Origin: Tetradesmus obliquus
Lineage: Eukaryota > Chlorophyta > Chlorophyceae > Sphaeropleales > Scenedesmaceae
Length of the DNA stretch: 64,000 nt
Direction of reading: 5' to 3'
Assembly (NCBI GenBank): GCA_030272155.1
Contig: CP126197.1
Location: 1,302,001 to 1,366,000 of the forward strand
Below are positions 1-64,000 of the stretch, in pieces; position 1 is the stretch's first letter; each line of letters begins with the position of its first letter. The position numbers and the translations under genes are program-made. The notes below the pieces were generated by a model. The model was given only the letters and a program-made list of their open reading frames with translations. It searched no databases and was not told the origin of the DNA.

Positions 1-1004
1 GGATGCATATGAACTGTTTTGTCCACACAACAAGGCAATTCTGGTTGTGCACTTTTGTCTTCAGTGGTGAGGGTTGGTTGCGAGTATCGCCACTGACAAT
101 GCATCCTGCACAGACAGCCAACTGCACACTGGCAGATGCTTGAAAATTTGAACGCAGGTATTTTGAGCCTTTCCATGGGCTATTTCGCTGCCCCATCACG
201 GACTGATGATACGGTGTGGGCGCCATAGTGTTTGTCAGCATGTGACAGAAGCTGTGTAGCTGTGCAATGCACAGTGTGCATGCACCAACATGTTGAACAA
301 GGAATTGTAAAATGTATGGTTAGCCATGAACAGACATTGACCAGGTTTACCTGTGGGGGTGTTTCCTGAAAATTTTGTTGTTTATGATGTGCAGTTTAAT
401 GCATACAGAGGAATGTGTGTGCGGTGGTTGCGTGACGCAGCTGCCTGATGATCACTCAACACCGTGGCTGGCAGTGCCACTGGCAAGTTAACAGTGTTAC
501 TGCAAGTGTTACTGCAACCGTTGCCAGTGTTTCTTGGAATGTGGGGAAAACAGCCACCACGTAATATGCTTCAGTTCGCTTCAAGCCTTTGTATCAACGC
601 CATTTCTGAACAATACCAATTGGCCTCACACCCCACTGGGGCACATGGCATGAATCTGGCAGCGCTGGCAACACTAGTACTGCTCTTTGGCATGCACAGC
701 TGTCTGTGTCCAGGAGGCCAGCCATGACGTGCTGCTCTGCTTAATTGCTCTGAATGCACTTGTGCATGACAGATGGGGAAGCTGGAAGCAATAATTGGGC
801 CACAAGCTCAGAATAAGACAACCCTACCTGTGACACGATTCAAATGCAGAAACACAACGCTCCGGCATCGGCACGCCTACAACCCACTCTCAAGATCGGT
901 GACATATCAAAAGTGCCACCAGGACGACTCAAAGCGTACGCGAACAGCCGTAATTTTGCAGAATCAGCTGCGACAGTGCAGATACCCTCAACTCCCGGCA
1001 CTCC
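1..1004. other. upstream region, no gene seen
   Basis: Only short open frames with no recognisable domain occur here on either strand. The stretch just before 1005 would be the 5' leader and promoter of the F-box gene. I see no RNA gene or mobile element. Confidence 0.5.
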
Positions 1005-4000
1005 ATGGCTGCCTCTGCTGAAGATGCTGCGGGCTGCCCCCTTACGGATCTACCTGCAGCATGTTTGAGGGGCATTTTGCAGTGCCTGTGGCCCGACGCA
1101 CGCGATGCTGCGGCCTTTGCCTGCTGCTGCAGCACCATTCGCACTTTGTGCGACGATCAGCTGCTTTGGAGGGAGCTACTGGTTAGGCGATACGGTGAAA
1201 CCGTGATACCTGGAATGAAACCGACTCCAGGTGCGTGTGCGGAATGTCTGTGCCCTGCTGTGCCCCGTCATTGCTTGCAGCAGCAGCACCACAGCACCTA
1301 CAGCTAACTTGCTGTGCACACGTGCATGCGCCTGCAGAGCAAACGCGGCCAGCAGAAATCGATGGATACGTGTTTTATCAAGGCCAGGACGGGTCAGCAG
1401 AGGCAGACAAGCAGCATGCAGATGCTGACCTGGCGCAGCTGGCCAAGCTGACACAAGGTGAGTGCCAGCTGGTGCCAGCTGCTGTTGCACCAGCAATGGG
1501 GTGTCGGTGCCACGCCAGCTGCGTGCAGCTGCACGTGCGCGTGTGCAGGAAACGCACATCATGCATTGAGTTAGCCGAGCGTGCGCGTTGCTGCCTGTGA
1601 CTGCAATGAGGCTGCTTTGGGCCGCAGCTGCATGCATTGCAATGCACGACTGCAGGACGCTGTGCCAGCAGTACATGTGCACAGTATGCACCCATCTGGG
1701 CAGCAGCGCCTCTTCTGTCAGTGCTGCTTTGTACGTTCTCCTGCTTGCAGCTTGCTAGCAGCATGCCCCTGTGCCATGTTTCCGTGCTGCTGCCTCAACT
1801 CATCAGCTGCTTGTGTCGCTCTGCCTGCACACTCCTGCATCAAGGAATGCACGCCCATTGCCACTGACGCTGGTCCCATGCTGCTACATCAAGTGTACAA
1901 TGTGTAACTCAGCTGCCTGTGTGTCCCTGAATCAAACAATGCGCGCCAATCAACACAGATGCTGGCGCTGAGGCCTTCACCACCTGCGGCAAAGTCATAG
2001 CGTGCCTGCAGCCGCAGCAGGCGTGGCGCCACAGCAGCTTCAAGCCCAGCCAGGGCATGTACGTGAAACAGGCGGCACTGCAGTACAGGCAGCTGCAGGA
2101 GCCGGCACCAGCCAGCGACCTGGCAGGTGACTGTTCTGTGGTGTTTGTGTGTACTCTATGCACTAGCACTGCTCGTGCTGTTGCATAGCTCCTGCATGTA
2201 CGTGAAGAAGGCGGCGATGCAGTACAGGCAGCTGCAGGAGCCAGCTCCAGCCAGCGACCTAGCAGGTGATTGTTGTTCAGTGTATGTGTGACTTTTTGAG
2301 AGACATGCCAAGCAAGTGCTTTTGTTTTTAAGGTTTTGGCCGTATCTGGCCCTGGCTTGTGGGTTTGCACTCACTGGTTAGGAACCACCTAAGGTGGTTT
2401 GGGAGTGGCTCCCTCCTCTGGGTTCACCTCTTGCTAAAAAAACGTGTAATTGTTTGATTGATTGATTGTATGTGTGATTGCTGGGTATGTGTGACTGCTA
2501 TGCATACTATGCACTAGCGCGGCCCATGCTGTTGCATGAGCTCCAGCGTGTACGTGAAAAAGGCGGCACTGCAGTACCGGCAGCTGCAGGAGCCAGCACC
2601 AGCCCGCGACCTGGCAGGTGACTGTTCTGTGGTGTGTGTGTGCATTCTATGCACTGGCACTGCTCGTGCTGTTGCATTTCTCCTGCAGGTACGCGAAGGA
2701 GGCGGCAGTACAGTACAGGCAGTGGCAGGAGCCAGCTCCAGCCAGCGACCTTGCAGATGATTGTTGTTTAGTGTATGTGTGCCTGCTGGTTATGTGTGAC
2801 CATGCAATGCACACACACATCCACGGGCAGCACCACATCCTTGCCAGTGTGCACCGCCACACGGCCAGCCACACATCACACCGCGGCCACAACCACTCAT
2901 CTCTTGGTCTCGCTTTCTGGCTCACGGCTGCTGCTTACAGACGCGTCCTGGCCGCCGCATTTGCCAGGCTGGGTGTACTTCCCATCCTGTGCCAGCCCAG
3001 GGCACCACAAGCTGGAGCCGGCAGACACACTCTGCATTGCACACACATCCACAAACAGCATCACATATTTGCCGGTGTGCATTGCCACACAGCCAGCCAC
3101 ACATCGAACCGCGGCCGCAACCACTCATCCTAACCCGTCTGCCACCACTTATCTCGCTTGCTGCTTGCCTGCTGCTGCTTGCAGACGCGTCCTGGCCGCC
3201 GCATGTGCCAGGCTGGGTGTATTTCCCCTCCTGTGCCAGCCCGGGGCACCACAAGCTGGAGCCCTCAGATACTTTGGCCCGCTACCAGACGCTGGAGGCA
3301 GCGCTGCGTGCGGCTGCGCAGCGCTACAACGTCGTGGCAGTGACGACTGAAGGTGCGTGCGTGTGTATGTGCTGATGGGGAGTGGACAGGGGCAACAGGA
3401 AAGAGCAACGTGGTGATGAGGTGACTAGCAGTTGCAACTGCTTGATTATTATAACATTACTGCATGAACGTGCTGACTATACCCTGGAAGGTTGGGAGGC
3501 AGTGGTCAGCAGTTGCTATGGCAGCAGCTGGCCAGGGGTGCTGGCCCGCTACCAGACGCTGGAGGCAGCGCTGCGCTCGACTGCGCAGCGCTACAACGTG
3601 GTGGCGGTGACTACACAAGGTGCGGGTGCTGGTAAACAGGGAAAGGGCAGGGAAGGGTGGCTGTGGCTGTACGCAACACATGAAGCTCGCCCGTAGCTTC
3701 TACATGCTCGTGTTTGACACCAACCACACAGTTGTACAATACTGTTACATAACACATTGTAACACGCTCTGCATGTGGCTGCACACACTCCTTTGTGTGG
3801 CGAAACATACTCAAGGACATATGCCTGTTTCGTGTTTGCTGCTGCAGGCGAGATGAAGACCAAGCTGCGCCCGCAGGCGTGCTGGGAGGTGCACCCCAGC
3901 TATGATGTGGGGCTGTACGTGCGGGCGCCACATGTGCAGCAGCTGGGGCTGGTGCCCAGCCCTGCAGGTGCGGCATGTTGGAATGCAGCGTTTATCACAA

Positions 4001-4936
4001 GCAGTATTAACCGTTTGGTGAGGTGGAAGTTGCCACCATGTGCAGCAGCTGGGGCTGGTGCCCAGCCCGGCAGGTGCGGCAGTGTACAATTTGCAGGAAC
4101 ACGTTATGTCACGAGATGCAGTCATTGATGATGCGTGTTCTGTGAGGTGCATGTTACAACCATGTTGCAGCAGCTGCAGCTGGTGCCCAGCCCTGCAGGT
4201 GCGGCATTTTGGAATGCAGCGTGTATCACAAGCAGCAGTAATGAATGTTCGGTGAGGTGGAGGTTGCAACCATGTGCAGCAGCTGGGGCTTGTGCCCAGC
4301 CCTGCAGGTGCGGCGTGTTGGAATGCAGCATGTTTCACGCAAGGTGCATGTTGCCACCTTATTGCAGCAGCTGTTGGTGTTTCGGCAGGAGATCTTCGGC
4401 TGGTGCCCAGCCCTGCACGTGAACAGCTCTTGAGCAGCGCATAACGCATAACGGCCAATTCGTCTTACACAAGCCTAGCCCTGCAGGCAAGCAGCAGTTG
4501 CAATGCGCAGCTGCAATGCCTCACCACCATGGTGCTCGCCTGCTGGATGCAATCTGCCGGGCTATGGCTTGAATTGGGTCGTTAAGTGTTCCAGAGTGTC
4601 CACCTCCCTGCTACGCACGGCTGTGCTCTGCTGCCTGCCTCCCTGCACAGTGCCCGACTACCGACGGCTGTGCTGCATACACCCCGACGGGCTCCCACCT
4701 TCGCTTGACGTATTATACGTGTGTCCTTGTGTGTCCTCGCACTGCTTGCTGCTGCTGTCCACCTCTAAATGCAGTGCCCGACTACCGGCCGCTCTGCTCG
4801 AGGCTGCAGCAGCTGCGCCTGGACGCAGCACACATGTCGTGTGCCTGGCTGAATGACCAGTACTTCAGCCTGCAGTGCATGCGGGACAATCTGTCAAGCT
4901 GCAACCTGCTGTTGTGCTCTGACCTCCCTGCTGTCC

Positions 4937-4980
<44 letters not shown>

Positions 4981-5159
4981 CTACATGTTGATTGCAGTGC
5001 CCGACTACCGGCGGCTGTGCTCCAAGCTGCAGCAGCTGCGCCTGGACGCAGCACACATGTCGTGTGCCTGGCTGAATGACCAGTACTTCAGCCTGCAGGG
5101 CATGCGGGACAACCTGTCAAGCTGCAACCTGCTGTTGTGCTCTGACCTCCCTGCTGTCC

Positions 5160-5203: not shown

Positions 5204-5786
5204 CTACGTGTTGATTGCAGTGCCTGACTACCGGCGGCTGTGCTCCAAGCTGCAGCAGCTGCGGCTGGACGCAGCACACATGTCGTGTGCCTGGCTGAAC
5301 GACCAGTACTTCAGCCTGCAGGGCATGCGTGACAGCCCTGCTGACAGTGTCATGGCACTGGTGCTGCATAGCGTGTGGTGGCTGGACATCAAAGGCAGCA
5401 TCCCTGGTGAGGGTTATGTTGCATTGTGCCTTTGCAAAGTGTGTATCCTGCAACTCTTTTCACACAACTCTGGAGCACAAGTTCTCTGCTTAGTGGGCTG
5501 GTCCAACAGCTGGTTATGCTTCTTGGCTGGTGTTGGTGTACGGCTGATGCCAGAAGAAGGGTTGTATAGCATGGTGATGTGCTAGTAGTGGCGCTGGTGC
5601 TGCACAGCGTGTGGTGGCTGGACATCAAGGTCAGCATTCCTGGTGAGGGGTTGTGGTGAGCGGGGTTCAAATGACATACTGGTGTTTCAACTTGGAGTTG
5701 CACTCACTCAGGCTGCAAGTCATAAAGCACTGTGCTCCAGCTGCTTGCTGTATCAAGCTTGGACCGTTTGCAATGCTGCACTGCCA

Positions 5787-7005: not shown

Positions 7006-10000
7006 ATGGCAACTCTGATAGCGTTCGCAGCTGTGCTGGTGTCGCTGGGAGCCGCCTGCGCAGGTGCGAAACTGGAAAATGTCCATGCTGCTTCCTTGCT
7101 GTGCAGTAGCAACGAATCATGCATCATCAAGCTCATCATCGGTTCTGTTACACTTGGTTATTATCATCACTATTGTGCTGAAGTTGTGTATGTCGTAGCA
7201 TGCTGCTGCTCGGCCGTCCAGCTGTCCTGGGCGCTGCACCAGCAGTACACACTGCAGTGGCAGGCCACTGGCCTGGGATGATCCTGGGCCATCATGGGCC
7301 ATCAACTACTGGCATGCAGACTGCAAAACCAAATCATCAACATCTTGTCTTATACTGTTTTTACACTGTTTGCTGCAGCTGATCCAGCAGTAGTGCGACC
7401 AGGGCAGGTGCCCATCCCAGCCCTGCCAGCTGGCCAGAAGCCAAACTTCATTGTCATCCTGACAGATGACCAAGGATGGGATGACATCGGGCTGCATAAT
7501 TCCAATTACGTCAACACGCCAAATTTGGACAGGTTCATCAAGGGTGGCACCTTCTTTTCCAACTTCTATGTGACGCCGCAGTGCGCGCAGACGCGTGCTG
7601 CGTTGATGACTGGCAGGCAGTACCCAAGGACCGGCACCATGCTGGTGCACGCAGGTGCGAGGCAGCAAGATGGCAACATACCAACCATCTTTGGTGCACC
7701 ATATGCTTACAGTGCCTTTGCAGCAGGTGTTTGCAAGGTAGCAAGTTCTCTGTGTTGGCCCTCCAACACTGCAACAGCTGCAATGTATCCTTCGCTGATG
7801 CAACATACAGCAGCAGCATCTGCTCAATCTTCCCTTTTTCCAAGCAATTCTGTACCTGCCGGCTCGGGTGCTGCTGCAGGCTGGGACTTCATGAACACAG
7901 CTGAGGTCACAGCAGGCGAGGTGATGTCGGCAGCAGGCTACCGCACCGCGCAGTTTGGCAAGTGGCACAACAGGGAGGTGGCTGGCTATGAGCCGTGGTC
8001 TGTGGGCTTCCATGAGGGAGAGCTGCCTGCCGCCAACAAGGACTGCCCAGTAAAGTGAGCAGACAGCTGGAAAATCAAGTCCTTTGCGTTGGCAGTCAGC
8101 ATGCATCCGAAGAGTCGGTGGCCTGCAAGTGTTGCAGCAGCATACGCCACGCCCTGCTTGAACTTGCTCAACTCAAAAACAGCTGGTGCCAGCATGCGTG
8201 CTTTTTTCCATGCCAGCCGTGTGACCTCTTTGTGGTAGAGTATGTAGCGCTAATCCGGCATTGACACATGCTATCATGTGACATGCCAGCCCACTGTTGC
8301 TCAACGCTTGGCCCCTGCTTGCTCTGCTCATTCCATGCAGCCGCAATGGCGTCTACGTGCTGCCAGACTCCATCTCAGAAGCAGCAGCAGCAGGAGCAGG
8401 AGCGGGTGTGGATGCAGCAGCCAGCCGCAGCAGCATCAGCCGCAGCGCCAGCGTCAACCGCAAGTCAAGCATCACCCGCAGCAGCAGCGCCGCGCAACAC
8501 ACAGCCGCCAGCCGCACTTCCAGCAGCAGCAGCAGCAGCACAAACAGCAGCAGCAGCAGTGTGGCCATTGCTTCTGTGAACAAGCTGTTCAAGGGTGATA
8601 TGGCTGCAAGGGAGCAGACAGAGATCAAGATGATGGATGGAGTGCTGAAGCTTCTTGGCAAGCACAGCGCAGCAGCAGCACAAGGCAGCAAGCAGCCGTT
8701 CTTCGTATACCACGCGCCGCATGCAATCCATGTGTGAGTGGCTACAGCATCAACACGGCGGCATGTTGCATTGAGACCATGCAGGTGTCAGTATGTGCAT
8801 GCTACTGTTGCTAGGCACAGCGGAGGGGCAGTGCTTCACAGCCAGCAGCCGCAAGTGCTCTACCCGCACTGCACAGCAACTGTACGTCCGCGACTATACG
8901 CTGCCGGTTGCTGCAGGACTCCTTTGCACTGCGCATCTGTGCTGCTGTCAGACACAGTGCTCGCGAGTTCAAAAAGGCGAACAATAATGTAATTTTTATA
9001 TATATAAAAATTGCATGCTGCAGGACTCCTGTGCGGCTGGATGGCAAGTTCAGGAAGGTCAGGTTCTCACCCCCGGAGTTCAAAGTGAAGTATTACAGCG
9101 AGCCAAAGTACAAGGGCATCTCAGAGAACACACTGGACGTGAGTAGCAGAGCGGCACAGCCTGCGGCACAGAGTATGTTGACTGTCAATGCTGACCAGCT
9201 GCATGTGTGCGGCAACTCAAGTTCGGCAATAGCATCGTGGCTTGTAGGAGAAAGCCACGCAACAGGTGATGATTCATACTGCATCACTGCATCACTGCAG
9301 CTGCAGCAGCTCCAAGAGGGCAGGCGGGCATCAGGGAATGGCCCAGCAGTAGACTGTGGCCGCGCTCGACCCCGCCTTACAACCAATTGACATTAACAAG
9401 AGCTTGCCACTGCAGCCTGATGCTGCTGCTACTGCTGCTGCTGCTGCTGCTGCCGGCCTGGTCCATGCTGTTGTACCTGGACTCATTGCTGGGACGGCTG
9501 TTCAACACCCAGTTCAACTGTCATCTAGCATATCTGTAACACTGTAACATGTTACGCAGGCCTGGGCCATGCTGGAGTACCCGGACTCAGTGCTGGGGCG
9601 GCTGTTCAAGCGCCTATTCTCCAACCATCTGTCACACGACATATAGGTAACGACGTAACATGTTATGCAGGCCTGGGCCATGCTGGAGTACCTGGATTCA
9701 GTGCTGGGGCGGCTGTTCAAGCACCCGTCACTCATCAAACTGTCTTGTAACGTATGTAACATGAATGTAACAATGTTACGTGTTATGCAGGCCTGGGCAA
9801 TGCTGGAGTACCTGGACTCAGTGCTGGGGCGGCTGTTCAAGCACCTCAAGGACACGGGGCTGGACAAGAACACTTACGTGATGATTATGAGTGACAATGG
9901 CAGCTTCCTCATGCCAGATGAGCCAAAGAAGGTGCGGCTGCAATTTGATGCAAAAGCGAAATGAAAAATGAGCCACATGGTGCGATAGCAGCACATGGAG

Positions 10001-13000
10001 TGTGGTGTGACCTGTATATGCTGCGTCTGGGCAATAGATATTGCTTAGATGCGATGGTGTTGCCCTGCTGGAGTGCACAGGCATGCTTGCTGCCGTCCTG
10101 TTGCCTTGCGCGCGCCGCTGCATTGCCGTGCACAAGTGTCGCTGCTGATACTATCACCCATCCAGTGCACGTGCTGTACTTTTTTGCAGCTGCTCACAGC
10201 CAACATCCGTGCTCATATTTGCTCACACGCCCAGACACCATGCACCTGCTGCTGCTGATGCTGATGCTGATGCTGATGCTGATGCTGATGCTGATGCTGA
10301 TGCTGATGCTGCTGCTGCTGCTGCAGAAGCGCATGCCCAGCCGCCTGACTGGCACCAAGTCTGAGGTGTTTGAGGGTGGCGTGAGGAACTTCTTGGCCGT
10401 GCAGGGCCCAGGGGTGCAGGCTGGCGTCACTGACAGCACCCTGCTGGACATCACAGGTGAATGGGGCTTGTCATATGTCGTTGGTTGCGCTAGCCTTCAC
10501 GATGGTATTTTTTGACTGCGCAATGTACGACGGCAGGCTGCTGTCACTGACAGCACCCTGCTGGACATCACAGGTGAGGCATGCGTGTGCATTTTGCACT
10601 TGTGGTATCCATTGTGTTTGAAGGCGGCGTGAGGAACTTCCTGGCTGTGCAGGGCCCAGGGGTGCAGGCGGGCGTGTCTGACAGCACCCTGCTGGACATC
10701 ACAGGTGAGTGGGGCTATTTTGGTAAAGTTTATGCTACTAGCCTTCGCTATGGGTGACTCCTTTTTTGCAATGGATGACGGCAGGCTGGCGTCACTGACA
10801 GCACCCTGCTGGACATAACAGGTGAGTGGGGCTTGTCATATGTCGTTGGTTGGGCTAGACTTGACGATATTCTTGCAAAGTGGCCCACTGTACAGCGGCA
10901 GGCGGGCGTCACTGACAGCACCCTGCTGGACATCACAGGTGCGGCGCGTGCATGTGGCACGCCCTGCGTTTTTTACTGGTGTAGAAGCTACTTGCACCTG
11001 CCGCTTGTCCCCGAAATCCATCACACAAACCACTTCCCAAAGATATCATGCATGGCTGCCCACAGCTGTCAAGTGTAACCAGTCAGCTCACCTGCACCAT
11101 TGCTTGTTGCAGCAGTCACACATACATTACCCAGACTGGTGGCTCTAACATGTATCATCCGCTCCCTGCCAACTCTGCTGCAGATATCCTGCCAACCATG
11201 GCAGACCTGGCAGGAATCAGCAGCAGCTCAAAGCACCTGCCCTGGGACGGCCGCAGCTTCAAAAACCTCTTAGTCCCAAGCAGCAGCAGCAGCAGCAGCA
11301 GCAGCGCTGTTGTCAGTGCAGATGGCAGCCGTGGCACCAGCCTTGCCACCAAGGAGCAGCAGGAGCGGGTGCTGTTCCTGTTGGGGCCGCAGTGCTGGGA
11401 TGCCAATGCAGTGCCTCTGCTGACGGCAGAGAGGTGAGCCTATGATACCTGCGTTTTCTGGTACCGACATGCTAGTCGAAGCTGCTTCACAGGCGTGGCC
11501 ATGCTGAGAACGGCATGTTATGAGTTGTGGCTAGTGCTTTTGTTGCCTTGGCACAGCTGAGGTGCTGATGGGATACACCCGACATGTTTGAGGAGGGCAG
11601 TACAAGCTGCATTTTGAAAATGACGCCATTGCAGTGCTTCAACTGACAGCAGATAGGTGGGCCGGTTGTGCTGGTTAACGCGGTACAGAAAAGGCATGCT
11701 GGTGGCGTGTGAAGCAGCCCAAAATATTTGCTGTCTTCCTTTCTTGGCAGTGAACACTTGTTGCGCATGCCAGCTAGCACCACCCAGTTTCTGCTGGCCT
11801 ATGCTGCCCTGCTGAGTTGTGCAGGGAGGTGGACAAGCGACAAGCACTGCTGAACTATGACAGGGGAGGCATGCCCAACCACATCTGGAAGTGGCTGCCC
11901 AGCCTAAAGCCCAGCAGGCCGGCAGGATTTGAGGCCTGTGTGGGGGCACGCTACAAGGAGTTCAAATGGGTGGGCGTGAACAACAAGGTGTACAGGTGCG
12001 GTGGCTGCGGCATGTGCAACAAGTGCACAGCCAGCTGGCAACAATACACTGCTGTGTGCAGATGCAGCAGCTGCAGCTGATTATGTTCATGGGCAATCTG
12101 CGAGCAGTGCACAATGCAAGAAGCAGCATGCCGCTGGCATCTTCACCAGCTCTGCTTTTCATCCGAGTGATGATGCCTAACAACTGAGGGCGCCTGCTGC
12201 ATGCCTGAAACGTCAACTCTGCAGGTTTGACGACGAGTCCCACCTTGAGAACGAGCAGACAGAAGTACCCCCAGCCATCGCAGCAGCAATCAGCAGCAAG
12301 CTCTCAGATGCAGCTCGCAGCTGGTGGAATTCCATGCTTGCAGAGCCACATAGCTTCAACAAGCCCACCTTTTATCTGGGCCTGGGCAGCAGCCTCGCAA
12401 GCAATGTGCTGGCGGCTGGCGCGCACGAGCGCACGCCTGGCAATGTAACACTGCTGGCGATGGGGGCGAGTGGATTCAGCAGCCCTGGGGACCGCGTGTG
12501 CTACAAAGTGCAGGTGGGAGCGCCCCAAGATTGTGATTGCGTTGCAGCTTTGTTGCGTTGTACGTCGTCATATGTTGTTGCTTCTGGGTTCTCATAATCA
12601 CCTGGCCTGCTGGTGATTTTGAGGAAGGATGCTTGCACGTTTTGTATTGGCACAAAGAACAGAGAGTTGCCGCACCTGCTGTCTTTGGTCTAGTTAGACT
12701 GATGGCAATGGGGGCGAGCGGCTGCAGCAGCCCTGGGGACTGCGTGTGCTACAAAGTGCAGTTGGGCATTTTGGCCGTGTTTTCAGCCACCTGGTACCAC
12801 TCATCTGTAGCCTGCTTGCTCCTTTGCAGGGTTGTCTGTGCTGGGCTGCCGGTTTTATGGTGACTGCTGGGCTGTGGTTAGACATTGCTGCTGCATCTTA
12901 CCATCATTGCACCAACAGGCTTGCAAGCTGACTCCCCACCCGCTTGCACCCGATTACACCCTTCAAAGCGTGGACTCACCTGGTGCTCCTCACATGTTTG

Positions 13001-13768
13001 TTTTCCACCTGCCCTGCAGGTTATGACAGCCGGCACATATGATGTGACGCTGATGTACACCTCAAGGGCAGCAGCCGCAGTGAAGCTGTCTTTTGGCACC
13101 TACCAGGCCATCAGGAGCGGCGCTGCTGCCAGCATCACCGCACAGCTGCCTCGCCAGGTGGGGCCCTGCAGCTGTTTGGAGAACAAAATAACAATGCCAT
13201 CTTTGTGACTGCATCAGTGGCCATACAGCCTGTGTCAGCAGCAGTTTTGCCAGAGATCTTACTGGTGCCTTGCAGTACTGGGTGCTGCAGTACAATGTTC
13301 ATTATCCTGCACGCCTTGCTTCGTGAGCGCTGAGCAACTGTGCCACTACCATTGCTGCTGCCACTGTTGCTGCTGCTGCTGTTGCTGCTGCAGGCGAGCA
13401 AGATGGAAGGCTTCTCAGTCGGCTCCCTCACCCTGCCAGCATCAGGCACCAAGAAAACCGAGCTCTGCCTGGAGCTGGCATCCAGCAGCAGCCCTGGCAG
13501 CCCGGCATTCAGCAGCCTTGCAAACATCCGCTTCACGCGCATCGCACAAACACCAGCATCACAAGGTCAGCTGAGAGGTGGCAGTGGTGCGTCTGCTGCG
13601 GGTGCAGCCGCACTGGATAGTGCAACGCTTGAGGCGCTGCGGGCAAAGTGCAACTGGGTGGGTAGTGTGAATGTGGCTGAGGATGTGGATGCTGTGATGG
13701 AGAGCATGTTCTCGCCGTATGATGCGGAGGACACAGACAGCTGCGCAGAATGCCAGCCGCAGCTGTGA
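7006..13768 (+). CDS. secreted sulfatase, arylsulfatase B/I/J type
   Basis: Twelve exons, all in phase, 836 residues: 7006-7063, 7379-7654, 7880-8054, 8341-8733, 9024-9138, 9791-9931, 10327-10456, 11184-11433, 11825-11995, 12225-12513, 13020-13157, 13394-13768. Exon 1 is a hydrophobic signal peptide (MATLIAFAAVLVSLGAACAG). The sulfatase fold follows: NFIVILTDDQGWDD with the metal-binding Asp pair (residues 49-50), PQCAQTRAALMTGR (Cys88 to Arg92), GKWH, a catalytic His in APHAIHV, MSDNG, a Lys in GTKSEVFEGGVR, and DILPTMADLAG. Sulfatases hydrolyse sulfate esters, here probably of extracellular polysaccharides or as a sulfur-scavenging enzyme. The signature differs from the usual C-x-P-S-R, with Gln and Thr in place of Pro and Ser. 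About 300 further residues form a Ser/Ala-rich C-terminal region of unknown role. Several introns carry junction copies. The family call is firm; the substrate is unknown. Confidence 0.85.
9409..9790 (+). repeat. three upstream copies of the sulfatase exon 6 head
   Basis: Copies of the start of exon 6 (AWAMLEYLDSVLGRLFK) occur near 9460-9512 (degenerate), 9560-9610 and 9671-9725. The last two follow a TTAYGCAG acceptor. The complete exon begins at 9791. Confidence 0.9.
10256..10324 (+). repeat. CTGATG hexamer tract followed by CTG triplets
   Basis: About nine CTGATG units run into a short (CTG)n and then directly into the exon 7 acceptor, so the repeat forms the polypyrimidine region of intron 6. 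Confidence 0.9.
10535..10940 (+). repeat. four downstream copies of the sulfatase exon 7 tail
   Basis: The end of exon 7 (DSTLLDITG) with a GTGAG or GTGCG donor recurs near 10535-10573, 10615-10705, 10783-10820 and 10905-10940. The second copy is longer and starts at FEGGVRNFLAVQGPG. Confidence 0.9.
12692..12762 (+). repeat. extra copy of the sulfatase exon 10 tail, donor lost
   Basis: Copy of the exon 10 end (AMGASG, then SSPGD and VCYKVQ). The base after CAG is T rather than G, so the GT donor of the original is gone. Confidence 0.85.
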
Positions 13769-15034
13769 GCCTCCTGCTGGGGTTGAAGCTTCAGCTACAG
13801 TAACAGTGGTGCCACCAGTGACTCCAGATACGAGGCTGTCGCCTACAGGCGCTGTCCTGGGCATTGCCATCAGTAGGTGGTGTTCAACTAAAAGTATATT
13901 GGATGTGATTGGCCTCATTTCAATGCTGCTGAGGATGTTGATGCGGTTATTGAGATAATGTTCTCGCCTTGTGGTGCGGAGGACCTGGATTGCTGCGCAG
14001 ATTGCCAGCTGCAGCTGTGAGGTGGAACGTTGAAAGTATTGCTGCAGAAGGCAATGCATTAGCTGCTGCCTGCAGGGGCTGCCATTGGTACGTCATGCCA
14101 TCAGGGAGCACTTGAAGATTGCAGCCGTTATCACTCAGTTGATTGGCTTCGTGCAAGTACTACATGTAATTACTAGTAGTAAGGCACAGACACGGAATGA
14201 ATTTAAGGTAACACCATCAAAGTGTTGGGCTATGGCAGACTCATTTGGCGACCGCCTGATTCAAAGATCTTCAACCTTTAGGCAAGCAAAGCCCTCCCGC
14301 AATGCCTGAACACTCGCTACAAAACACTGTCAACGCTGGCACTGCTGATGGCACAGCAGCACATCTAGGAAAGCAGCTCCAGAACTGCACTTGCCTGTCT
14401 GCACCCCTAAGACACAAGAGCACAACTCAGCATGCATTGAATACAGCGTACTGATGCAGCATCGAACATCACCCGGGCGCCGCACATACGGCACAAAAGG
14501 CGGTTCACAATGTCAACCACTGCCCCCCAATACGCACTTCGCTGTCTGTCTAGATCTACCGATGCTAGACTTGCCAGCAGCAGCTGCGTGAGCGTGCTCA
14601 ATTGAATGCAACGGAGGAAGCGAGCGATGCTGATGCGACACGTCAGCTGCCGCCACAGCACCCATGCACAGCGCAGTGTTGTCCTACTCAGCAGCACATG
14701 CTGTCTGACTTGCAGAGAAGAAACTCATTCACAAACACGAGACGGTGTGGCAGACGAGCTGCCAAACATACATATCTACACAGCAGAAGTACAATAAATA
14801 TGTCCAGAATGACACATTCGCTAATCCAACAAAGCATGATGGTCCCCAGGAAGAAGTCAGTGCTAGCAGCAGCCTGCAGAGCTCAGATCATGGTGCACAC
14901 AGAAGCATGCCAACTGCAGCTGAGCGACGTAATGTTTACCAGCCACGTGATGATGACACCACACCAATCATTGCTTTGCCGACTGCTAGCGAAAAACTGC
15001 ACTTCATTGGACCACGTCGCACCTACTGTGCTTA
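13769..15034. other. 3' region between convergent genes
   Basis: Lies between the ends of the sulfatase gene and the minus-strand gene at 15035. A duplicated coding end is present at 13905-14021. The remaining open frames look non-coding, including a long plus-strand frame that runs antisense into the next gene. Confidence 0.5.
13905..14021 (+). repeat. copy of the sulfatase coding 3' end beyond its stop
   Basis: The last ~110 nt of the coding region (AEDVDAVMESMFSP to the stop) are repeated here with many substitutions, about 250 bp downstream. It is not part of the reading frame. This is the 3'-end version of the exon-tail duplications. Confidence 0.75.
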
Positions 15035-15483: not shown

Positions 15484-18473
15484 GGCCTGCAGCAGAGAAC
15501 ATACTGCGTATCCTTGCCCTCTCCTCATCAGACCGTGCTGACGCCATCATCGACTCCTGCAACAGCTGCCGCGTTGCTTCTTGGCCGGCAGGAGACCGCA
15601 TCTCAGCAAGCCATTCCTCGCTGCATCATGCGGCAGGAGTGACAAGCAGCAGAGACATGGCTGCGTCAGCGCAGTCAGCAATAAATTCAGGCAGGGCCTG
15701 CAGCAGCACATTGTGAAGGTGCAGCACTACAGCGGCATCTGCGGCAGCCAGGCACAAGAGCCCAGCACAACAACTGTAGTCGGGCACAGAGCGCTCACGC
15801 CTCTATAGAAGGAACTGCCGCCCTAGGCTGATGCCTGCTAACAAGACCGATATGCGGTCATTCCCGTCAAGCACTTCAGTCATCTTGGTACAGTTGGGTG
15901 AACCGCTGTGTGCAGCGGCAACATTCGCCGCACCCGCGTACAGCTGTGATGCAGCACGCATACAGCTGCAACACATGCGGCAGAGCCATTGCAGCTACTC
16001 ACTGCCAGCAAATGCCGTGGCAGCGCCATGCACTGAGGCCGTTGCAGCACTGCATATCCATGTTGCAGAGCCGTTGCAGTTCTAGTTCAGCACTCACTGC
16101 CAAGCACTCCAGCTATGTTGATACAGTATGGAATTCTGCGAAGCAGCAACATTCGAGCACAGCCTGTCCGCAGCAGTAGCCGCTCCAACACGTGCAGCAC
16201 AGGCGTTGCAGCTACTCACTGCCAGCGAATGCCGCAGCTGCTCCATGCACTGAGGCCGTTGCAGCTACTGCAGATCCATGTTTTGTGCAAATGTTGCAGA
16301 GCCGTTGCAGTTCTAGTTCAGCACTCACTGCCAGCGAATGCCGAGCCGCATGGTGTTCATGTGGCGCCGCCACAGCTCAGCGTTGGTGTCAACGTGTGCC
16401 AGCATAGCCGGAGGCTTCTTGATCTGCCCCACGCCGCGCTTGCTGAAGCGGCGCACCAGCAGCTTGCCGTTTGTGGCATCCAGGTCCACAGCAGGCGCCC
16501 CTGCGCCGTTGCTGCCGGCGATGCAGCCCGGCACGTGGTGCCTGCAGGCACATGTGGCAGCGCAGCAGGTGGTGTTATTGCCCACTATTGCGCAAAGTAG
16601 AGTGGCATGCCAGCAGCTTGCCATTTGTGGCGTCCAGGTCAACAGCAGGCGCCCCTGCGCCGTTGCTGCCGGCGATGCAGCCCGGCACGTGGTGCCTGCA
16701 GGCAGATGTAGGTCGTGTGATGCAGCAGGCGATGCTTAGTGCTGAAGGTGGTGCGGGGAAGTGACGAGGCATGTCTGTGCGTTGCTGCCGGCGATGCAGC
16801 GAGGCACGTGGTGCCTGCAGGCAGATGTGGCAGCGCGGCAGGAGGTGTTAATGCTAATCATTGCTCAAAGTAGTGTGGCATGCCAGCAGCTTGCTGTTTG
16901 TGGCGTCCAGGTCAGCAGGAGGCGCCCCTGCGCCGTTGCTGCCAGCGATGCAGCCCGGCACGTGGTGCCTGCAGGCGGATGTAGATTGTGTGATGTAGCA
17001 GGCGATGATTAGTACTGAAGGTGATGCGGGGAAGTGGCGTGGCATGTCTGTGCGTTGCTGCCGGCGACGCAGCGAGGCACGTGGTGCCTGCAGGCGGATG
17101 TAGATTGTGTGATGCAGCAGGCGATGATTAGCACTGAAGGTGATGCGGGGAAGTGGCGTGGCATGTCTGTGCGTTGCTGCCGGCGACGCAGCGAGGCACG
17201 TGGTGCCTGCAGGCAGATGTAGGTCGTGTGATGCAGCAGGTGGTGTGTATTGCTGAAGGTGATGCGGTGAAGTGGTGTGGCATGTCGGCGCGTTGCTGCC
17301 GGCGATGCAGCGCGGCACGTAGTGCCTGCAGGCAGATGTGGCAGCGCAGCAGGTGGTGTTGTTGCCCACTATTGCGCAAAGTAGTGTGGCATGCCAGCAG
17401 CTTGCCGTTTGTGGCGTCCAGGTCAGCAGCAGGCGCCCCTGCGCCATTGCTGCCGGCAATGCAGCGAGGCACGTGGTGCCTGCAGGCAGATGTAGGTCGT
17501 GTGATGCAGCAGGTGATGATTAGTGATGAAGGTGATGCGATGAAGTGGTGTGGCATGCCGGCGCGTTGCTGCCGGCGATGCACCGCGGCACATAGTGCCT
17601 GCAGGCGCGTGTGGCAGTGCAGCAGGTGGTGTGTATTGCTGAAGGCGATGCGGGGAAGTGGCGTGGCATGTCGGCGCGTTGCGGCTGCTGCAGAGGCATT
17701 GTTGCTGCTGGCGATGCAGCACTGCTGGTGCTGCTGGTGATGGGCTGTGAGAACAGCTGATGCAGCTCAAAGGGCAGCTGCGCAATCATCAACAGCAATG
17801 GCACCAATGCTTATGAAGCCTGTCACTGTCGTGAGGACGCCAGCAGTGAGCTTCAAAAAAGAGATGCTTGTCTATTATCTATTGTATTTCTCTCACCTGC
17901 CATCCGCCCTGTGCTTGTCCACCACCTCCACCCTATACTGCTTGCCATCTGCCTCATAGGTGAATGCATCCCCAATGGCTGCCTCGCTCTGGCCGTATAT
18001 GTTGAAGAGCTGTGCTGTCTTGGCTGCCTTGACGGCTTTGCTGGTGGCAACAGACACAAAGCTGAACGCCTGCGCAGTTGCGGCAACACAGTGGCTGCCG
18101 CTTGAGAAGCGTACTTGGAAAAACTTAAAATGCTACGGATTTGATGGTGTGCTGCTTGCAGATGTTTGTGCTGCCCTGCGCCAAATGCTGTGCACACATG
18201 TGGTGACAACACCTGCCCAGATGCCCGGCTACCAGGCTGCACAGAACATCCTTGCCTTCTGCTGCCTCCTGCTGTTGCCTTGGCAAACGAACCAGCAGCC
18301 CAAGACCTTGCTGTTACCTTTCCGTCGATGGTGGAATCACTTTGCCGTGGTTTGAAGCAGAACTGCAGACATCTGTGCAGGTTGAAGAAGGTGATGGTCT
18401 CCAGCACGATGAAGTCACGCGTGGCCCTGCCATTTCGCTCAGTCGCTTTCACGAGCAGTAATGTATCCACCAT
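15035..18473 (-). CDS. unrecognised protein with PIP-box-like C-terminus
   Basis: Four exons agree in phase on the minus strand: 18473-18318, 18123-17897, 16541-16329, 15620-15035, giving 393 residues from an ATG in good context (ACCATGG). I do not recognise the family. The first half includes TERNGRATRDFIVLETITFF, FFQVRFSSGSHCVAATAQAF and DGKQYRVEVVDKHRADGR; the middle has VDLDATNGKLLVRRFSKRGV and ELWRRHMNTMRLGIRW; then EEWLAEMRSPAGQEATRQLL leads into a long Q/A-rich linker. The protein ends NNSILKYFAKLP. The segment N-x-x-I-x-x-Y-F fits the PCNA-interacting PIP pattern except for Asn in place of Gln, so a replication or repair role is possible but is only inference. The start could lie further upstream. 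The introns are inflated by junction copies. Confidence 0.6.
15990..16250 (-). repeat. two copies of the exon 3 tail of the PIP-box-like gene
   Basis: The exon 3 end (CATTCGCTGGCA before a GTGAGT donor) recurs near 16203-16250 and, as CATTTGCTGGCA, near 15990-16040. Both lie downstream of the real exon end at 16329. Confidence 0.75.
16600..17640 (-). repeat. about eight upstream copies of an exon head, ~120-155 bp spacing
   Basis: The acceptor and first ~40 nt of exon 3 (HHVPGCIAGSN, acceptor CCTGCAG) recur near 16690, 16815, 16970, 17090, 17210, 17330, 17485 and 17600. Copies near 16620-16690, 16890-16970 and 17395-17485 are longer and include GAPAVDLDATNGKLL. The complete exon starts at 16541, the 3'-most position on this strand. 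Confidence 0.85.
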
Positions 18474-38506: not shown

Positions 38507-38656
38507 TCCGCCGTCTCTCCTCGCCCTCTTTGGGGGCTGTGCGGGTCACATACGGCTTCAGCGCAAAGCCTAGTGGGAACTCCGGCACCTGGTACTGCGG
38601 CAGCATGCTGGGCGCCACCAGCGGCAGCCCATCATGATCAATAATGCTGACGCCGC

Positions 38657-38710
<54 letters not shown>

Positions 38711-39101: not shown

Positions 39102-39147
<46 letters not shown>

Positions 39148-39345
39148 CAGCTGCGCCTGCAAGATCCACTCAATCACCATCACTGCCACTGCGCAGCTGC
39201 ATCATTTCCGCCGTCTCTCCTCGCCCTCTTTAGGGGCTGTGCGAGCCACATACGGCTTCAGCGCAAAGCCTAGCGGGAACTCCGGCACCTTGTACTGCGG
39301 CAGCATGCTGGGCACCACCAGCGGCAGCCCAGCACGCTCAAAGAG
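38507..39345 (-). repeat. three downstream copies of the mL41 coding 3' end
   Basis: Copies near 39345-39205, 39078-38952 and 38630-38507 all encode VPSMLPQY, then GFALKPYV and PKEGEERRR. They are separated by CTG tracts and lie beyond the stop of the full exon at 39430. Some carry substitutions such as PEVLLGF. Confidence 0.9.
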
Positions 39346-39429: not shown

Positions 39430-39633
39430 TCACTTCCGCCGTCTCTCCTCGCCTTCTTTAGGCGCTGTGCGGGCTACATACGGCTTCAGAGCAAAGCCTA
39501 GCGGAAATTCTGGAACCTTGTACTGTGGCAGCATGCTCGGCACCAGCACAAAGTTCTTGTATCTGTCCATGAAGCCTGCCTGCATGGCGCGCTTGCCCTT
39601 GTTGAAGTCGCGCTTCTGCTTGCCGGTCAGCAC
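39430..39633 (-). CDS. mitochondrial ribosomal protein mL41, terminal exon
   Basis: The exon opens after TTACCCAG and encodes 67 residues from VLTGKQKRDFNKGKRAMQAG to a TGA. The core KVPEFPLGFALKPYVA matches mL41 (human MRPL41 has VPDLTGFKLKPYVS; plant forms have VVPDLTDFKLKPYVS). mL41 is a protein of the large mitoribosomal subunit. The 5' exon is not resolved; candidates lie at 39883-40010 on the minus strand. Both edges of this exon are duplicated: two head copies upstream and three tail copies downstream. The exon here is the only copy with both ends intact. Confidence 0.75.
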   Translation of the reverse strand: MLTGKQKRDFNKGKRAMQAGFMDRYKNFVLVPSMLPQYKVPEFPLGFALKPYVARTAPKEGEERRRK

Positions 39634-39721
39634 CTGGGTAACAGCAGCCGTGGGGTGCAATACACAGCGTGATTGTCAGTGTTTGGTGCAATTTGCGGTC
39701 ATTTGAGGTGGTGCCCTTGCA

Positions 39722-39882
39722 AAGTTGCCGCTTTGCTTGCCAGTCAGCACCTGCAGAAATGAGGGATAAAGGCGCACTGCGCCTGGCAGGCAGCACATGC
39801 AGGGCGCCCAGTCGGCACCTAGCGTGGTGAGGTGAGGTGGTGATGTTGTCAAATTCGCGCTGCTGCTTGCCAGTGACCACCT
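39722..39882 (-). repeat. two upstream copies of the mL41 exon head
   Basis: Acceptor plus VLTGKQSGNF (39755-39722) and acceptor plus VVTGKQQREF (39882-39850) precede the full exon VLTGKQKRDF at 39633. Confidence 0.85.
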
Positions 39883-40010
39883 GTGGCGAGTGGTGTGAAG
39901 TGAGCTGCGGTAATGCAATGCACACAGCGGGTGCCAGGTGCTGCTCAAACCGCAGCAATGCTGCATGGCTGCAGCCTCCGACATGAATCTGCGCCTGCTC
40001 GAAGCGCATA

Positions 40011-44000: not shown

Positions 44001-44943
44001 ATGAGTCATTGCTTTGGACAGTGGACGGCTGAGGGAGGTGCGCGGCTTCTGCTGGTTAGGGGGCCACTGGTTGCGTGCTGATGCTTTTCATTCATGTTGG
44101 TGTCCTGGAGTGTGGACGGCTGCCTGGTGCGGCTGAGGGAGGTGCGCCACCTCTGCAGGTGGCAGTGCCGCTGGTTTGTTTTGTTCCCTTTATGTCGAGC
44201 AATGAGTCATTGCTTTGGACAGTGGACGGCTGAGGGAGGCGCGCAGCTTCTGCGGGTTAGGCGGCCACTGGTTGCGTGTCGATGTTTTCATTTCATGTTG
44301 GTGTCTTGGAGTGTGGACGGCTGCCTGGTGCGGCTGAAGGAGGTGCGCCACCTCTGCAGGTGAGCTGGTGGTTTGAGGCTACTGTATTTGGTTGGCAACA
44401 ACCGCCGCATTTGTCTAGCTCAGCTCGTCAAACGCAGAGTTGCCCGCTTGCGTGGTGCAGCCATGTCAGAAAGCACGGAACTGCATGCGTGCAATGGAGT
44501 ATCACAGATCACCACCCGCCAGCTGCAGTATGGAAGTATGGCTTTCATCAAGAAACACTAAACTCAGTGAAGCGGATGCATTGCCGTCTTGAAGGAGTCA
44601 TGCAGTTGCTTCTGCATGTCACTTGCCCAACACAACTTGCTCATCTTTCTGTCAACAAGCGTCGCTGCTGCTGTTGTCCTGCAGGCTGGATGTGGCGCAG
44701 CCTGTGATCATCCGGGAGACCAAGCACTGCGAGGGCAGTATGCAGCAGCTGGCAGCAGCAGGCGCGCCCACCTCAGTGGCGGGCTACGAAGATGCAGAGG
44801 CAGCCGCCAATGTGTTTTCAGCCATTGCGCCGCAGTGCCTCACCAAGTTTGAGCTGCACGAGCTGCTGCTGCCAACACAGCAGCAGCAGCAGCAGCAGCA
44901 GGATGGTGTAGGAGCAGCAGCAGCAGGCGCAGGGTCGGCATAG
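41063..44943 (+). CDS. TIP41-like protein (PP2A-pathway regulator)
   Basis: Three exons: 41063-41743, 42127-42224, 44685-44943, all in phase, 345 residues. The TIP41/TIPRL family pattern is clear: LTLPEICFGNSSLQLRH, FNALDALKQW, EYDWTYTTSYCGSL, then DEPILFYAEVPLYESELDDN, VRVMPRCWLVLLRFWLRVDG and a C-terminal VIIRETKHCEGS. Family members bind catalytic subunits of PP2A-type phosphatases and act in TOR signalling. Poly-Q, poly-A and Ser stretches (about residues 134-187) are inserted between the TTSY and DEPI blocks. The C-terminus has a further poly-Q run. Intron 1 has two extra exon-1 tails. Intron 2 spans 2460 bp, most of it an array of exon-2 tail copies, so the message depends on skipping many decoy donors. 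Confidence 0.88.
41811..41962 (+). repeat. two extra copies of the TIP41-like exon 1 tail
   Basis: Copies of ELDDNGVCQLTVK with a donor occur near 41811-41855, then in more diverged form (KLDANGVCQFTIP) near 41925-41962. Confidence 0.85.
42321..44362 (+). repeat. 11 tandem copies of the TIP41-like exon 2 tail, ~201 bp each
   Basis: The exon 2 end encoding VDGCLVRLREVRHFCR recurs at 42321, 42522, 42722, 42923, 43123, 43324, 43525, 43726, 43911, 44112 and 44313. Spacing is 200-201 bp except one of 185. Most copies read VRHLCR before GTGG. The last ends in GTGAG, the donor form also seen at the true exon. Units from 42321 onward also hold a second, internally deleted exon tail (GTGGACGGCTGAGGG) with no donor, so the amplified unit is a dimer. 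Confidence 0.97.
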
Positions 44944-45925: not shown

Positions 45926-48004
45926 ATGGCAAAGAAACTCTTCTACGCTCTCCCTCTGGTCTTTATTTGTGGAGGTGCCCTGTGTCAGCTGGCGCTGGCA
46001 GCCAGGGACTTTGGTGTAGCAGACAGTAAGTTGCAACAGGGCCCTGCTCTGCCAGCAGTCTCGGCTATTGCAGCATGCCTTGGACCAATCGAAGAACCTG
46101 CGATGGACCAGAAAGCAGCATAATATGGGCCTGGAGATTGCATGCCATAGACCAGCATGCAGCATGGCGTGGGCCAGCAAACAGCAGACCATGACTCAGC
46201 AAACAGCACAGCATGGCATATACAACAGCATGCTATGCTGGCCGGCCAGCTAGCATCATCATGGTGTCTTAGCTTGGCAACAGCGTGCCACAACCCAGCA
46301 AGCAGCATGCCATGGCCAGTAAATTGATCCATGCGCAGGCTGCTGCTGACTTTCCTGCAACCCTGCAACTGCTGCTGCTGTTCCATTGCCAAGGTCGCAA
46401 GCCCGAATGGCCGCGTGACCTTCCCGGGCTCCCAGACTTTGCAGGAAATGAAGCAGAGCGCCAAAAGCATGATCAGGACCACCATGATGATCACAACAAT
46501 CACCAGCAGCGTGTTTCTGCTCAGCCCCAGCAGTTTGGGCAGTGGCAGAATGGACCCACAGCAAACCTCTCTGGCGCAGTGGCTGCTGCTGGCTTCGCAG
46601 CAGTGCCTGGCTTTGTAACTCTTCCTGGTGCAGCAGCTGCCCCTGCCACGGCATATGTCCCCGCCACAGCAGCTGTTCCTGGCGCAGCAAATGTTCCTGC
46701 CACAACAACGGTTCCTGCAAGTGGCGCAGCAAACGTCCCTGCCACAGCAAATGTCCCAGGCGCTGCAGCTATTCCTGCCAGTGGCGCAGAGTCCGCTCCT
46801 GTTGCAGCAAACATCCCTGTGGCAGCAACCGTTCCTGTTGCAGGGCCTGTTCCTGCAAGCGGCGAAGCAAACATCCCTGCGGCAGCAACCGCTCCCTCCA
46901 GTGGCGCGACAAATGTTCCATCCATTGGCACCAAAGATGCTCCTGCAAGCGGCACCAAAGACGCTCCTGCAAGCGGCATCAAAGACGCTCCTGCAAGCGG
47001 CACCAAAGACGCTCCTGCCAGCGGCACCAAGGATGCTCCTGCAAGCGGCACCAAGGATGCTCCTGCAAGCGGTACCAAAGATGCCCCTGCTAGGGCACCA
47101 AAGACGCTCCTGCAAGCGGCACCAAGGATGCTCCTGCAAGCGGCACCAAGGATGATCCTGCAAGCGGCACCAAAGATGCCCCTGCTAGCGGCACCAAAGA
47201 TGCCCCTGTTACTGGCACACAAGATCCTACTGCGGGTGCGTGGCGATGCATTGGATCACTTTGTCACGCACTGGCAGATGCACAGTGTGCCATGCAGTGC
47301 TGCAGCAAGCACTGCTGCAGCAATCGTGCCAGCATGTGCTGTCAACTGCCCGCTTAAACGTGCACGCTCTGTTTGGAAAGCGTTTGCATGGTACGCTTGT
47401 GCAGAATGACGTGGTTCTGCATGGTAACCTTCGAAGTTGATTGCCTGTTGCCGTTGTGCAGGTGGCAATGTGGCTTTGAACAAGCGGTCAAACGCCAACT
47501 ACCATGTGAGTGCAGGCTGCATGTCAGACAGGCGTGCAGCAGTTTGCTCAGGATTTTGCATGTGTTTTGAAGTGGACAGCCTATTGGAGAGGCAGGTGGC
47601 AGTCTGCTATGTGTTTGTCATGATCTGTTTGGCACGCGCAGGTGCGTGTTTGCATGCGCTACGTATCTGATGTTTGCAAGCTTCAAAGTTTCTGATGTCA
47701 GCAAGCACATGATTGAATGATCGTTAGATGATGTCCACTTCCGTTACTGCTGCCGCTGTCTTGCTGCTGGCAGATCTATGACAACGCCAACTTCCCAGAT
47801 GGCAGGGTGAGTAGCTGAAGCAAGGTCACAATGCTGTGCAACACAAGTGATTGCCAGAAGCATCATCAGCTGAATGCCTGACAGCTGTGAAGCTGCGGGA
47901 TCCTGCTGAAACAGGTGCACTGAGCAGTGTTGTGGAGTGCAATGCTGTGATGAGATAGCAACTACTTGGCACGAGCAGCTGTATTGTTTTTTTGCGTCAC
48001 CAGC

Positions 48005-51656: not shown

Positions 51657-53287
51657 TCATGTGCTGAGCCGCAAGTACCGCTCGCAGCATGCATTAGCAA
51701 CCAGCGTCATTGCCAGGCCAGCAGCGAACGAGGCCAGCAGGTTGTCTGTTGCTATGAACGCAGCAAACATGGACGCCTGGCCCACCACAAAGCGAGCCCC
51801 AAGCCAACCATGCACCAGCTTTGCCACTAACTCTTCACTTTCTTCTTCTGCTGAACTCAGATATGATGCGAAGTTTGGGTCACTTGCTGCTGCTGCTGCC
51901 GCTGCAGCCGCCGCTGCTGCCGCAGCTTCCTGCACTGCTTTTGGCTCGTAGCGCAGCAGCTGCTTCTTTGTAGCGGCCTCAGCAGCCGCCGTCTGCCGCT
52001 GCTGCTGTAGGTTGGTGGTCTTGGTCTTGGAATGGAAGTCGTAGCGGGTTGCAATCATGCAGCAGATGGCTGCTGCTGCCAGCCATTCAGATCCCAGGCC
52101 GCATGCGCTGCCTGCTGCTGCAGGGGCTGCTCCAAGCAGCAGCGGCTGCTCGCACACTCCAGCCTCCGTGAACCTGTCCAGCAGCAGAAAGAAGGTGGCA
52201 GCAGCAAGGTGGCAGCAGCAGGGTGCATGTCTGAGGAATGACGGTTGTGATGGTGCAACATCACAGTGCTGGCTGCTGGCTGCAGCCGCTCCACAACATT
52301 GACAACTGCTCATCAACAACTGCTTTCTCTACTATGATAACCTTGTACAAAAGTCTGTTCCCTTCAACTCCACACCGCCTCACCTTGCAGCCAGCCACGC
52401 GCTGCTGCAGCCAAGCAGTACTCCACAAGCCAGCAGATCGTTAATCAGCAGCAACAACACTGTGCTAGCGACAACACAGCAATGCAGGAGCACTGCTGGT
52501 TGTTTGCTGGAGCTGCTCAACACGGCCACTGCTCATTGCAGCCTGCTGCTGCTGCTTTATAAATCTCTATATGCTCACCTTGCAGCCAGCCAGGCGCTGC
52601 TGCAGCCAAGCAGTACTCCACGAGCCAGCAAGTCATCACTCAGCTGCGCTCCCGCCTCCAGCATTGCCCTGCGCATGCCGCCCGCCGCACCAATCAAACT
52701 GTACCGCATGTTGTGCAGGTACACATACTCGACTGCTTCCTGCATTGCTGCTGCAGACAGGCCAGGCCCAGCTGCTGCTGCTGCTGCTGCTGCTGCTGGT
52801 TTGGCCTGCTTGGTGGCTGGCAGGCTGCTGCTGATCATCAGTAGTGCTGCTTCCATTGCAAGGCAAGGAGTAGCTGCTTGAATGCCTATCAAGATGTGGC
52901 TGGCTTCGAAATGCAAGTGTGAAAACAGGTTGAGGTGCAGGGCGTAGGCTGCTGCCATGGCGATGCTGCCCCTGCAGTGTTTTGCAACCAGGGCATGGGG
53001 CGCAGCGCAGAATGCGGCAGCTTAGGCAAGGCCCAAGGAGTGCACGTGCAGCTACATGCGCCAGTAGCTGTGTGGATTGAAGTTCTGCCAACTATACCAC
53101 ACTAGAGGAATTAGACAGCGCTGGCTAGCTCAGGTCACCTGCAACTTGGCAAGCTGTGCTATGGCAGAGTTTCCTTGCTTGCAGGGCAACGGAGCTGCCA
53201 GCGAGCAGGCAGGCAGGCAGCAACGTGATGGTGCTACAGCTGTACAGTCGAGTTGCACAACTGCCACATAGCCAGTTTGACTGCAGC

Positions 53288-54783: not shown

Positions 54784-60714
<5,931 letters not shown>

Positions 60715-63700: not shown

Positions 63701-64000
63701 AATAAGTAGTTTAGCAACATCGCCGTCAGCAGCATCACTGGTCAAGCTCAGTGACGAAAGGCACTGAGCCACACGTTGCTCTGTACTGTGATACTGAGCC
63801 AGTGCGGCATCATGTAGAGGCTACGGTAAGCCTCAAAACTGCATGTCCCGACGCATGTCGCAGCAAAGCAGCATCATGATGCAACATCTCAGTTCTGCAA
63901 CACTTCACTCAGCAGCATCACCAATCCAGGATTGATTGCCGGTGGCCAGACGCACTGATCCAGCCGGCACTGCGCCACACATTGCTCTGTACTGTGAACA
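60715..64000. other. intergenic region, no gene resolved
   Basis: No open frame shows a recognisable domain or a consistent splice model. A two-copy repeat of about 147 bp lies at 61073-61345. At the right edge a block containing TTGCTCTGTACTGTGA occurs near 63775 and again near 63980, possibly part of a gene cut by the window end. Confidence 0.4.
61073..61345. repeat. two-copy direct repeat, ~147-bp unit
   Basis: GAATGAGT...GACC through GCAGAGAGCTGTTG, CTTG and AAAGCACT is present at 61073 and again at 61220 with moderate divergence. Confidence 0.75.

Follow-up and report, generated by a model that had tools for sequence, protein, structure and literature searches.

The window analysed here is a stretch of 64,000 nucleotides (C7:1302001-1366000) from the genome of the green alga Tetradesmus obliquus, which spans 104.66 Mb in 17 contigs. 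Its G+C content is about 55%, and self-comparison revealed abundant direct local repeats. Exons were predicted by a small gene finder that was self-trained on the window and on 200 kb from contigs C1-C5, and five 40 kb blocks from elsewhere in the genome (C1-C5) served as the comparison sample. The splice signals that it learned were AG/GTGAG for donors and TGCAG/G for acceptors. Exon limits rest on this finder and on homology, not on RNA, and the finder itself frequently called copies as exons; predicted exons shorter than 60 bp or scoring below 8 were excluded, as were alignments with fewer than 20 unmasked exon bases.

A curated scan of the window located partial exon copies of two kinds, tail copies, which carry the exon end and its donor, and head copies, which carry the acceptor and the exon start. 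At the left of the window, on the plus strand, the PP2-like (‘F-box’) exon 1959-2126 is accompanied by tail-plus-donor copies at 2194-2290, 2546-2767 and 2685-2781. Exon 3185-3352 has a head copy on its 5′ side (2812-3028) and a tail copy on its 3′ side (3542-3624), exon 3848-3967 has tail copies at 4032-4206, 4161-4318, 4271-4338 and 4398-4421, and exon 5221-5406 has both head copies (4648-4677, 4742-4888 and 4848-5114) and a tail copy (5589-5649). In the plus-strand sulfatase gene, head copies lie within 9451-9725 for exon 9791-9931, tail copies at 10533-10577, 10614-10826, 10781-10960 and 10898-10941 for exon 10327-10456, and a tail copy that has lost its donor GT at 12698-12766 for exon 12225-12513. 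Within 13394-14021, the copy of the final sulfatase exon as called ends at CTGTGAG, and the called TGA stop may belong to a GTGAG donor. On the minus strand, exon 16329-16541 has an upstream run of head copies (16610-17734), and the chlorophyllase-like exons 20815-20985 and 21433-21509 have tail copies at 20685-20731 and 21258-21371. The plus-strand exon 26482-26574 has a tail copy at 26802-26846.

Further along, the minus-strand mL41-like exon 39482-39633 has tail copies within 38425-39320 and head copies at 39712-39753 and 39846-39883. The end of this exon is doubtful and probably wrong, as the frame appears to continue (KPYV...) beyond the called donor. The plus-strand TIP41 exon 41310-41743 has tail copies at 41804-41858 and 41914-41978, and TIP41 exon 42127-42224, on the same strand, is followed by a tail-plus-donor array in which a 201-bp unit recurs about ten times (42321-44375). 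The ‘51657 gene’ exon 52579-52827, on the minus strand, has a tail copy at 52379-52452. The remaining cases lie on the plus strand in the GH1 region: exon 55885-55973 (tail copies 56088-56231, 56201-56347 and 56312-56389), exon 57142-57407 (head copy 56981-57109, tail copy 57492-57614), exon 57829-57914 (head copy 57691-57748), exon 58489-58638 (tail copies within 58678-58872) and exon 59400-59632 (head copies 58971-59039, 59115-59182 and 59257-59322, tail copy 59773-59866). Three other repeats were recorded in the window: a tandem array whose 164-bp unit is repeated about 6.4 times (31088-32139) and to which the edge scan attached no exon edge, a near-perfect 78-bp palindrome that is 97% self-complementary (37699-37776), and a 24-bp minisatellite of about 11.8 copies (46927-47208) whose translation would give GTKDAPAS-like repeats.

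Among the gene names in the preliminary description of this DNA, those of the GH1, sulfatase, TIP41, chlorophyllase and mL41 (MRP-L27) genes were borne out by matches passing the Pfam cut-offs. The sole match of the ‘F-box’ gene was to PP2, at 24.7 bits just below the 25-bit cut-off, and the ‘FAD synthetase’, ‘PIP-box-like’ and ‘51657’ models had no Pfam match. When only complete exons were joined, the predicted proteins matched GH1 at 1.7e-102 (residues 1-382 of 405), sulfatase at 3.9e-37 and TIP41 at 2.5e-43. The GH1 model begins at the exon at 56618, exon 55885-55973 having been left out because its joining gave stops; it aligns along solved beta-glucosidases, and the TIP41 alignment spans the junction that conceals the ten-unit array. 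As these proteins find their matches without the repeats, the copies are intronic and form no part of the proteins; for these three genes the complete exons suffice, in support of the earlier proposal that the message skips the decoys.

Edge copies are frequent. The curated scan found them at 32 of the 90 edges of 45 window exons (23 tail, 9 head), a few being weak or of low complexity, besides two whole-exon matches and one internal match; every tail copy lay 3′, and every head copy 5′, of its complete exon. An automated count on 42 confident window exons gave 25 of 84 edges, and across the window and the blocks 72 of 338 confident exon edges, about a fifth, carry copies, with up to seven at a single edge. 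The claim that such copies pervade the introns of the window is thus confirmed, and it holds outside the window too. The alignment of introns with their flanking exons that the preliminary description had proposed was run on the 135 introns between confident exons, 26 of 195 exons being set aside as copies themselves. At 40 bits, the own upstream exon was matched in 31 introns and the own downstream exon in 19, against a chance expectation of 0.05 each (from 13 matches among 34,560 unrelated exon-intron pairs); on the minus strand, the same introns gave no own-exon match at this threshold. The facing exon edge was reached by 46 of the 50 own matches (27/31 upstream and 19/19 downstream, where chance would give 1.7 and 0.9).

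Copies were held by 37 of the 135 introns, distributed as 14/34 in the window and 5/13, 0/23, 0/14, 6/25 and 12/26 in blocks C1 to C5, respectively. The median length of introns with a copy was 652 bp, against 310 bp for those without, in support of the suggestion that a local process lengthens introns by copying their junctions. The distribution is uneven across the genome, with copies at none of 58 edges in block C2 and one of 38 in block C3, as if the duplication process were regional. Local duplications numbered 0.23 and 0.15 per kb at the loci of these two blocks (L006-L009 and L010-L013), against 0.47-1.15 elsewhere, and exons there are also richer in G+C (0.69-0.70).

Copies also occur at loci chosen by gene family. 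From 61 genome matches to the TCP-1 family, 12 loci on nine contigs were fetched, two pairs of them overlapping; eight of the 12, spread over five contigs, held copies, and of these copies 19 were tails on the 3′ side, ten were heads on the 5′ side and two were neither (29/31 with the expected sidedness). One of these loci, L022, has a TCP-1 exon tail with five copies (2017-2933 of the reverse complement). For tRNA-synt_1, the match table lists overlapping half matches, sided as in the window, on contigs C10 and C13. Edge copying is real, and it extends beyond the window.

The polarity noted in the preliminary description, with tail-plus-donor copies 3′ and acceptor-plus-head copies 5′ of the complete exon, holds across the window and the blocks. 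Among copies of confident exons lying within 800 bp, 135 of 145 edge copies fit the rule (83 tails on the 3′ side and 52 heads on the 5′ side). Four of the ten exceptions lie in one 24-bp coding minisatellite (47103-47235), one comes from a model that overruns into a copy, and five are others; the same count held 20 internal and two whole-exon matches. Selection, which had been offered as a possible cause of the polarity, is not needed, since the geometry of tandem duplication alone forces the sidedness. When a tandem unit crosses the end of an exon, the first copy stays with the exon body and the second falls downstream, therefore giving a 3′ tail copy; a unit that starts in the intron and ends in the exon is the mirror case, and therefore gives a head copy on the 5′ side.

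Spacing was measured on the nearest copy at each edge, after 291 records had been reduced to 168 on the proper side, 160 with copy-exons removed, 78 with one per edge and 72 with a spacing below 800 bp. Of these 72 spacings, 47 fell at 90-160 bp, two at 161-199 bp and 17 at 200-280 bp, with one below 90 bp and five above 280 bp. This preferred spacing near 115 bp, together with its double, is a feature that the preliminary description did not contain; the hump at 200-280 bp may represent dimers, a reading prompted by the arrays at 10327 and 9791. In 30 of the 72 edges, the nearest copy is head-to-tail, the aligned length filling the spacing. In the other 42, a class likewise absent from the preliminary description, the match ends 0-40 bases past the splice site.

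We favour, with a probability of roughly 70%, the explanation that frequent short tandem duplications across exon edges, tolerated within introns, gave rise to the copies. Short tandem duplications, mainly of 90-160 bp, would be frequent events in this genome. A unit lying within an exon would presumably damage the message and be lost, and one that crosses an edge would be tolerated while the spliceosome keeps using the site of the complete exon; the partial copy would then end up in the intron, on the side that geometry dictates, and each event would make the intron longer by one unit. Later, many spacers would diverge, the exon part would stay alike and the decoys would retain some coding signature. 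The small number of internal relative to edge copies (20 versus 135) was counted in favour of this explanation.

Plain duplication followed by decay does not predict the early stop of the match in 42 of 72 edges at equal divergence of the exon part. This stop just past the splice signal recalls a copying process aimed at junctions, such as template switching coupled to splicing or transcription. Greater age of the unmatched spacers was considered as their cause and found unsupported, median exon-part divergence being 9.3% in the short-extension class and 8.6% in the head-to-tail class. When short-extension spacers were compared directly, 22 of 45 had no similarity at p 0.05 and the remainder had weak to clear similarity, so that about half of those tested retain some similarity. 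Both classes also share the same spacing, as a single duplication process predicts. Junction targeting might equally account for the excess of edge-crossing pairs: random 90-160 bp duplications modelled over 23 exon chains would place 25% of the tolerated ones across an edge, and the observed pairs were 34 edge-crossing, 11 intronic, three exonic and five other. We do not take this excess as proof of targeting, because present-day introns have already grown and similarity within intronic pairs is lost sooner, yet it is not explained away. On balance, copying directed at junctions appears an improbable substitute for plain tandem duplication.

The copies bring near-identical splice sites close to the functional ones, and most of these sites persist, with GT retained in 86 of 103 copies and AG in 54 of 58. 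Among 44 edges, the exon donor was stronger than its nearest decoy in 15 (eight of them through loss of the decoy GT), equal in 17 and weaker in 12 (sign test, p 0.70); among 28 acceptors, the corresponding figures were 17 (two through loss of AG), two and nine (p 0.17). The decoy sites are also closer than the true sites to the opposite end of the intron. Strength and proximity both fail to single out the true donor, which makes exon definition the likely arbiter: a decoy would lose to the true site for want of a partner site across the exon. Second splice sites at the inner ends of copies were not enriched over control: an acceptor-like site lay by the start of 46 of 104 tail copies (control 55%), and a donor-like site by the end of 21 of 58 head copies (control 47%). 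Tandem alternative exons would carry an acceptor as well as a donor on every copy, which is not what these copies display, in keeping with the earlier view that most of them are not alternative exons. Acceptor-like sites were not depleted in tail spacers (4.66 per 100 bp, against 4.54 in copy-free introns).

The preliminary description also held that the copies are decaying, through stops and lost donors, and this stands in part. In 28 exon-decoy pairs judged by their own intron flanks, 88 changes fell at codon positions 1 and 2, against 100 for neutral decay; the reading frame is not protected, as exon-part indels do not come in threes (8, 24 and 9 by length modulo 3); and some donors have been lost. 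The wording was nevertheless too strong, given the retained splice sites, the scarcity of stops (4 versus 9.2 expected) and the comparison of decoys with one another, in which 27 pairs with alignable flanks had 91 changes at positions 1 and 2 where their flanks predicted 190. Exon-part indels numbered 19 against 49 expected, a yardstick that intron repeats may inflate.

Such figures lend some colour to the idea that the copies function as half exons, through minor isoforms or through translation by some other means, with their amino acids under selection. The exon-decoy dN/dS over 72 edges was 0.29 (bootstrap 0.23-0.36; 255 synonymous and 215 other changes), where a neutral decoy would give about 0.5; it was 0.17 at 13 TCP-1 edges, and 0.35 between decoys of 27 families, although decoys born serially from the exon can push decoy-decoy ratios down towards 0.5. 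A mutation bias of CpG or trinucleotide context was rejected as the source of the synonymous excess, as dN/dS was unchanged. The families are uneven. Comparisons among four L022 decoys gave 2-4 differences at 23 third positions against none at 46 others, and two head decoys of GH1 exon 59400 differ at 6 of 20 third positions and at 0 of 42 others, their flanks differing by 32%; both families look strictly coding, and that of TIP41 exon 41310 looks free. Against half-exon function stand the inner ends without partner splice sites, the indels out of frame, a copy spacing with no clear frame preference (29, 24 and 19) and the fit of exon-decoy pairs to neutral decay. We are aware of no way in which a half exon could be read, and consider functional half exons unlikely.

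Constraint is likely in some decoy families. As a tentative and rather doubtful suggestion, half-exon decoys could form a selected or continually refreshed reservoir of diverged, protein-equivalent exon ends that swap by recombination with the functional exon; decoys would then stay coding though untranslated. Exchange between decoy and functional copy, within or between haplotypes, is a low-confidence guess at the origin of the retained coding signature, and a four-gamete test of it, which found one incompatible pair among 15 pairs of sites (P 0.15), had no power.

An assembly artefact, in which alleles or the strains of a mixed culture were joined end to end, might account for the allele-like, synonymous-rich differences in some families; it is very improbable in view of the up to seven copies per edge, their varied divergence, preferred spacing and strict sidedness, and their presence on many contigs of the 17-contig assembly. 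Introner-like mobile elements, which also change introns en masse and are reported from green algae as dispersed families that create introns (PMC9860276), have next to no likelihood here, as the copied sequence is that of the flanking exon, unrelated exon-intron pairs across the sample gave 0 matches in 34,560 at 45 bits, and no family shared by unrelated introns emerged from this comparison or from the self-comparison of the window. The distinction from transposon-like introners drawn in the preliminary description holds as far as tested, the 11 distant matches on the plus strand of the window being apparently triplet repeats. Both phenomena remodel introns on a large scale; the copies described here are local.

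Short tandem duplication across exon edges, our preferred explanation, is a known kind of event on an unusual scale. In the potato RdRp gene, a tandem duplication across an intron-exon boundary is described as carrying the splice signals along (Ma, Lan, Niu 2016, PMC4974935), as in the present case; that account concerns one gene in which a new intron arose, whereas here 72 of 338 edges are involved and no new intron is needed. The sidedness expected of junction-crossing tandem duplication is present in 135 of 145 edge copies and in 29 of 31 at the TCP-1 loci, and a head-to-tail arrangement is seen in 30 of 72 nearest copies and not today in the other 42. Intron gain by AGGT duplication likewise relies on tandem duplication to supply duplicated splice sites, but in that mechanism the duplicate of a purely exonic unit turns into the intron, whereas here the unit bridges a junction that was already present and adds length to the intron beside it; the matches are not purely exonic, 27 of 31 and 19 of 19 of them reaching an existing edge. 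One further study reportedly identifies within-gene duplication as a source of intron change. A search for literature on duplicated exon-intron boundaries, judged by title and the start of the abstract, returned nothing on the present pattern. As for the repair route, fill-in at staggered breaks is one candidate: work in mouse and human cells has established small tandem duplications at such breaks (PMC8355091), by a route that similarly yields short units.

Overall, our analysis indicates that in this alga introns grow in gene after gene through duplicated exon edges rather than through mobile elements. It also offers a natural experiment on splice-site choice, in which the many transcripts with a true site and near-identical decoys allow the effect of strength to be told apart from those of position and exon definition. 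Should the decoys truly retain a coding signature, the common expectation of free decay for intronic fragments would fail here.
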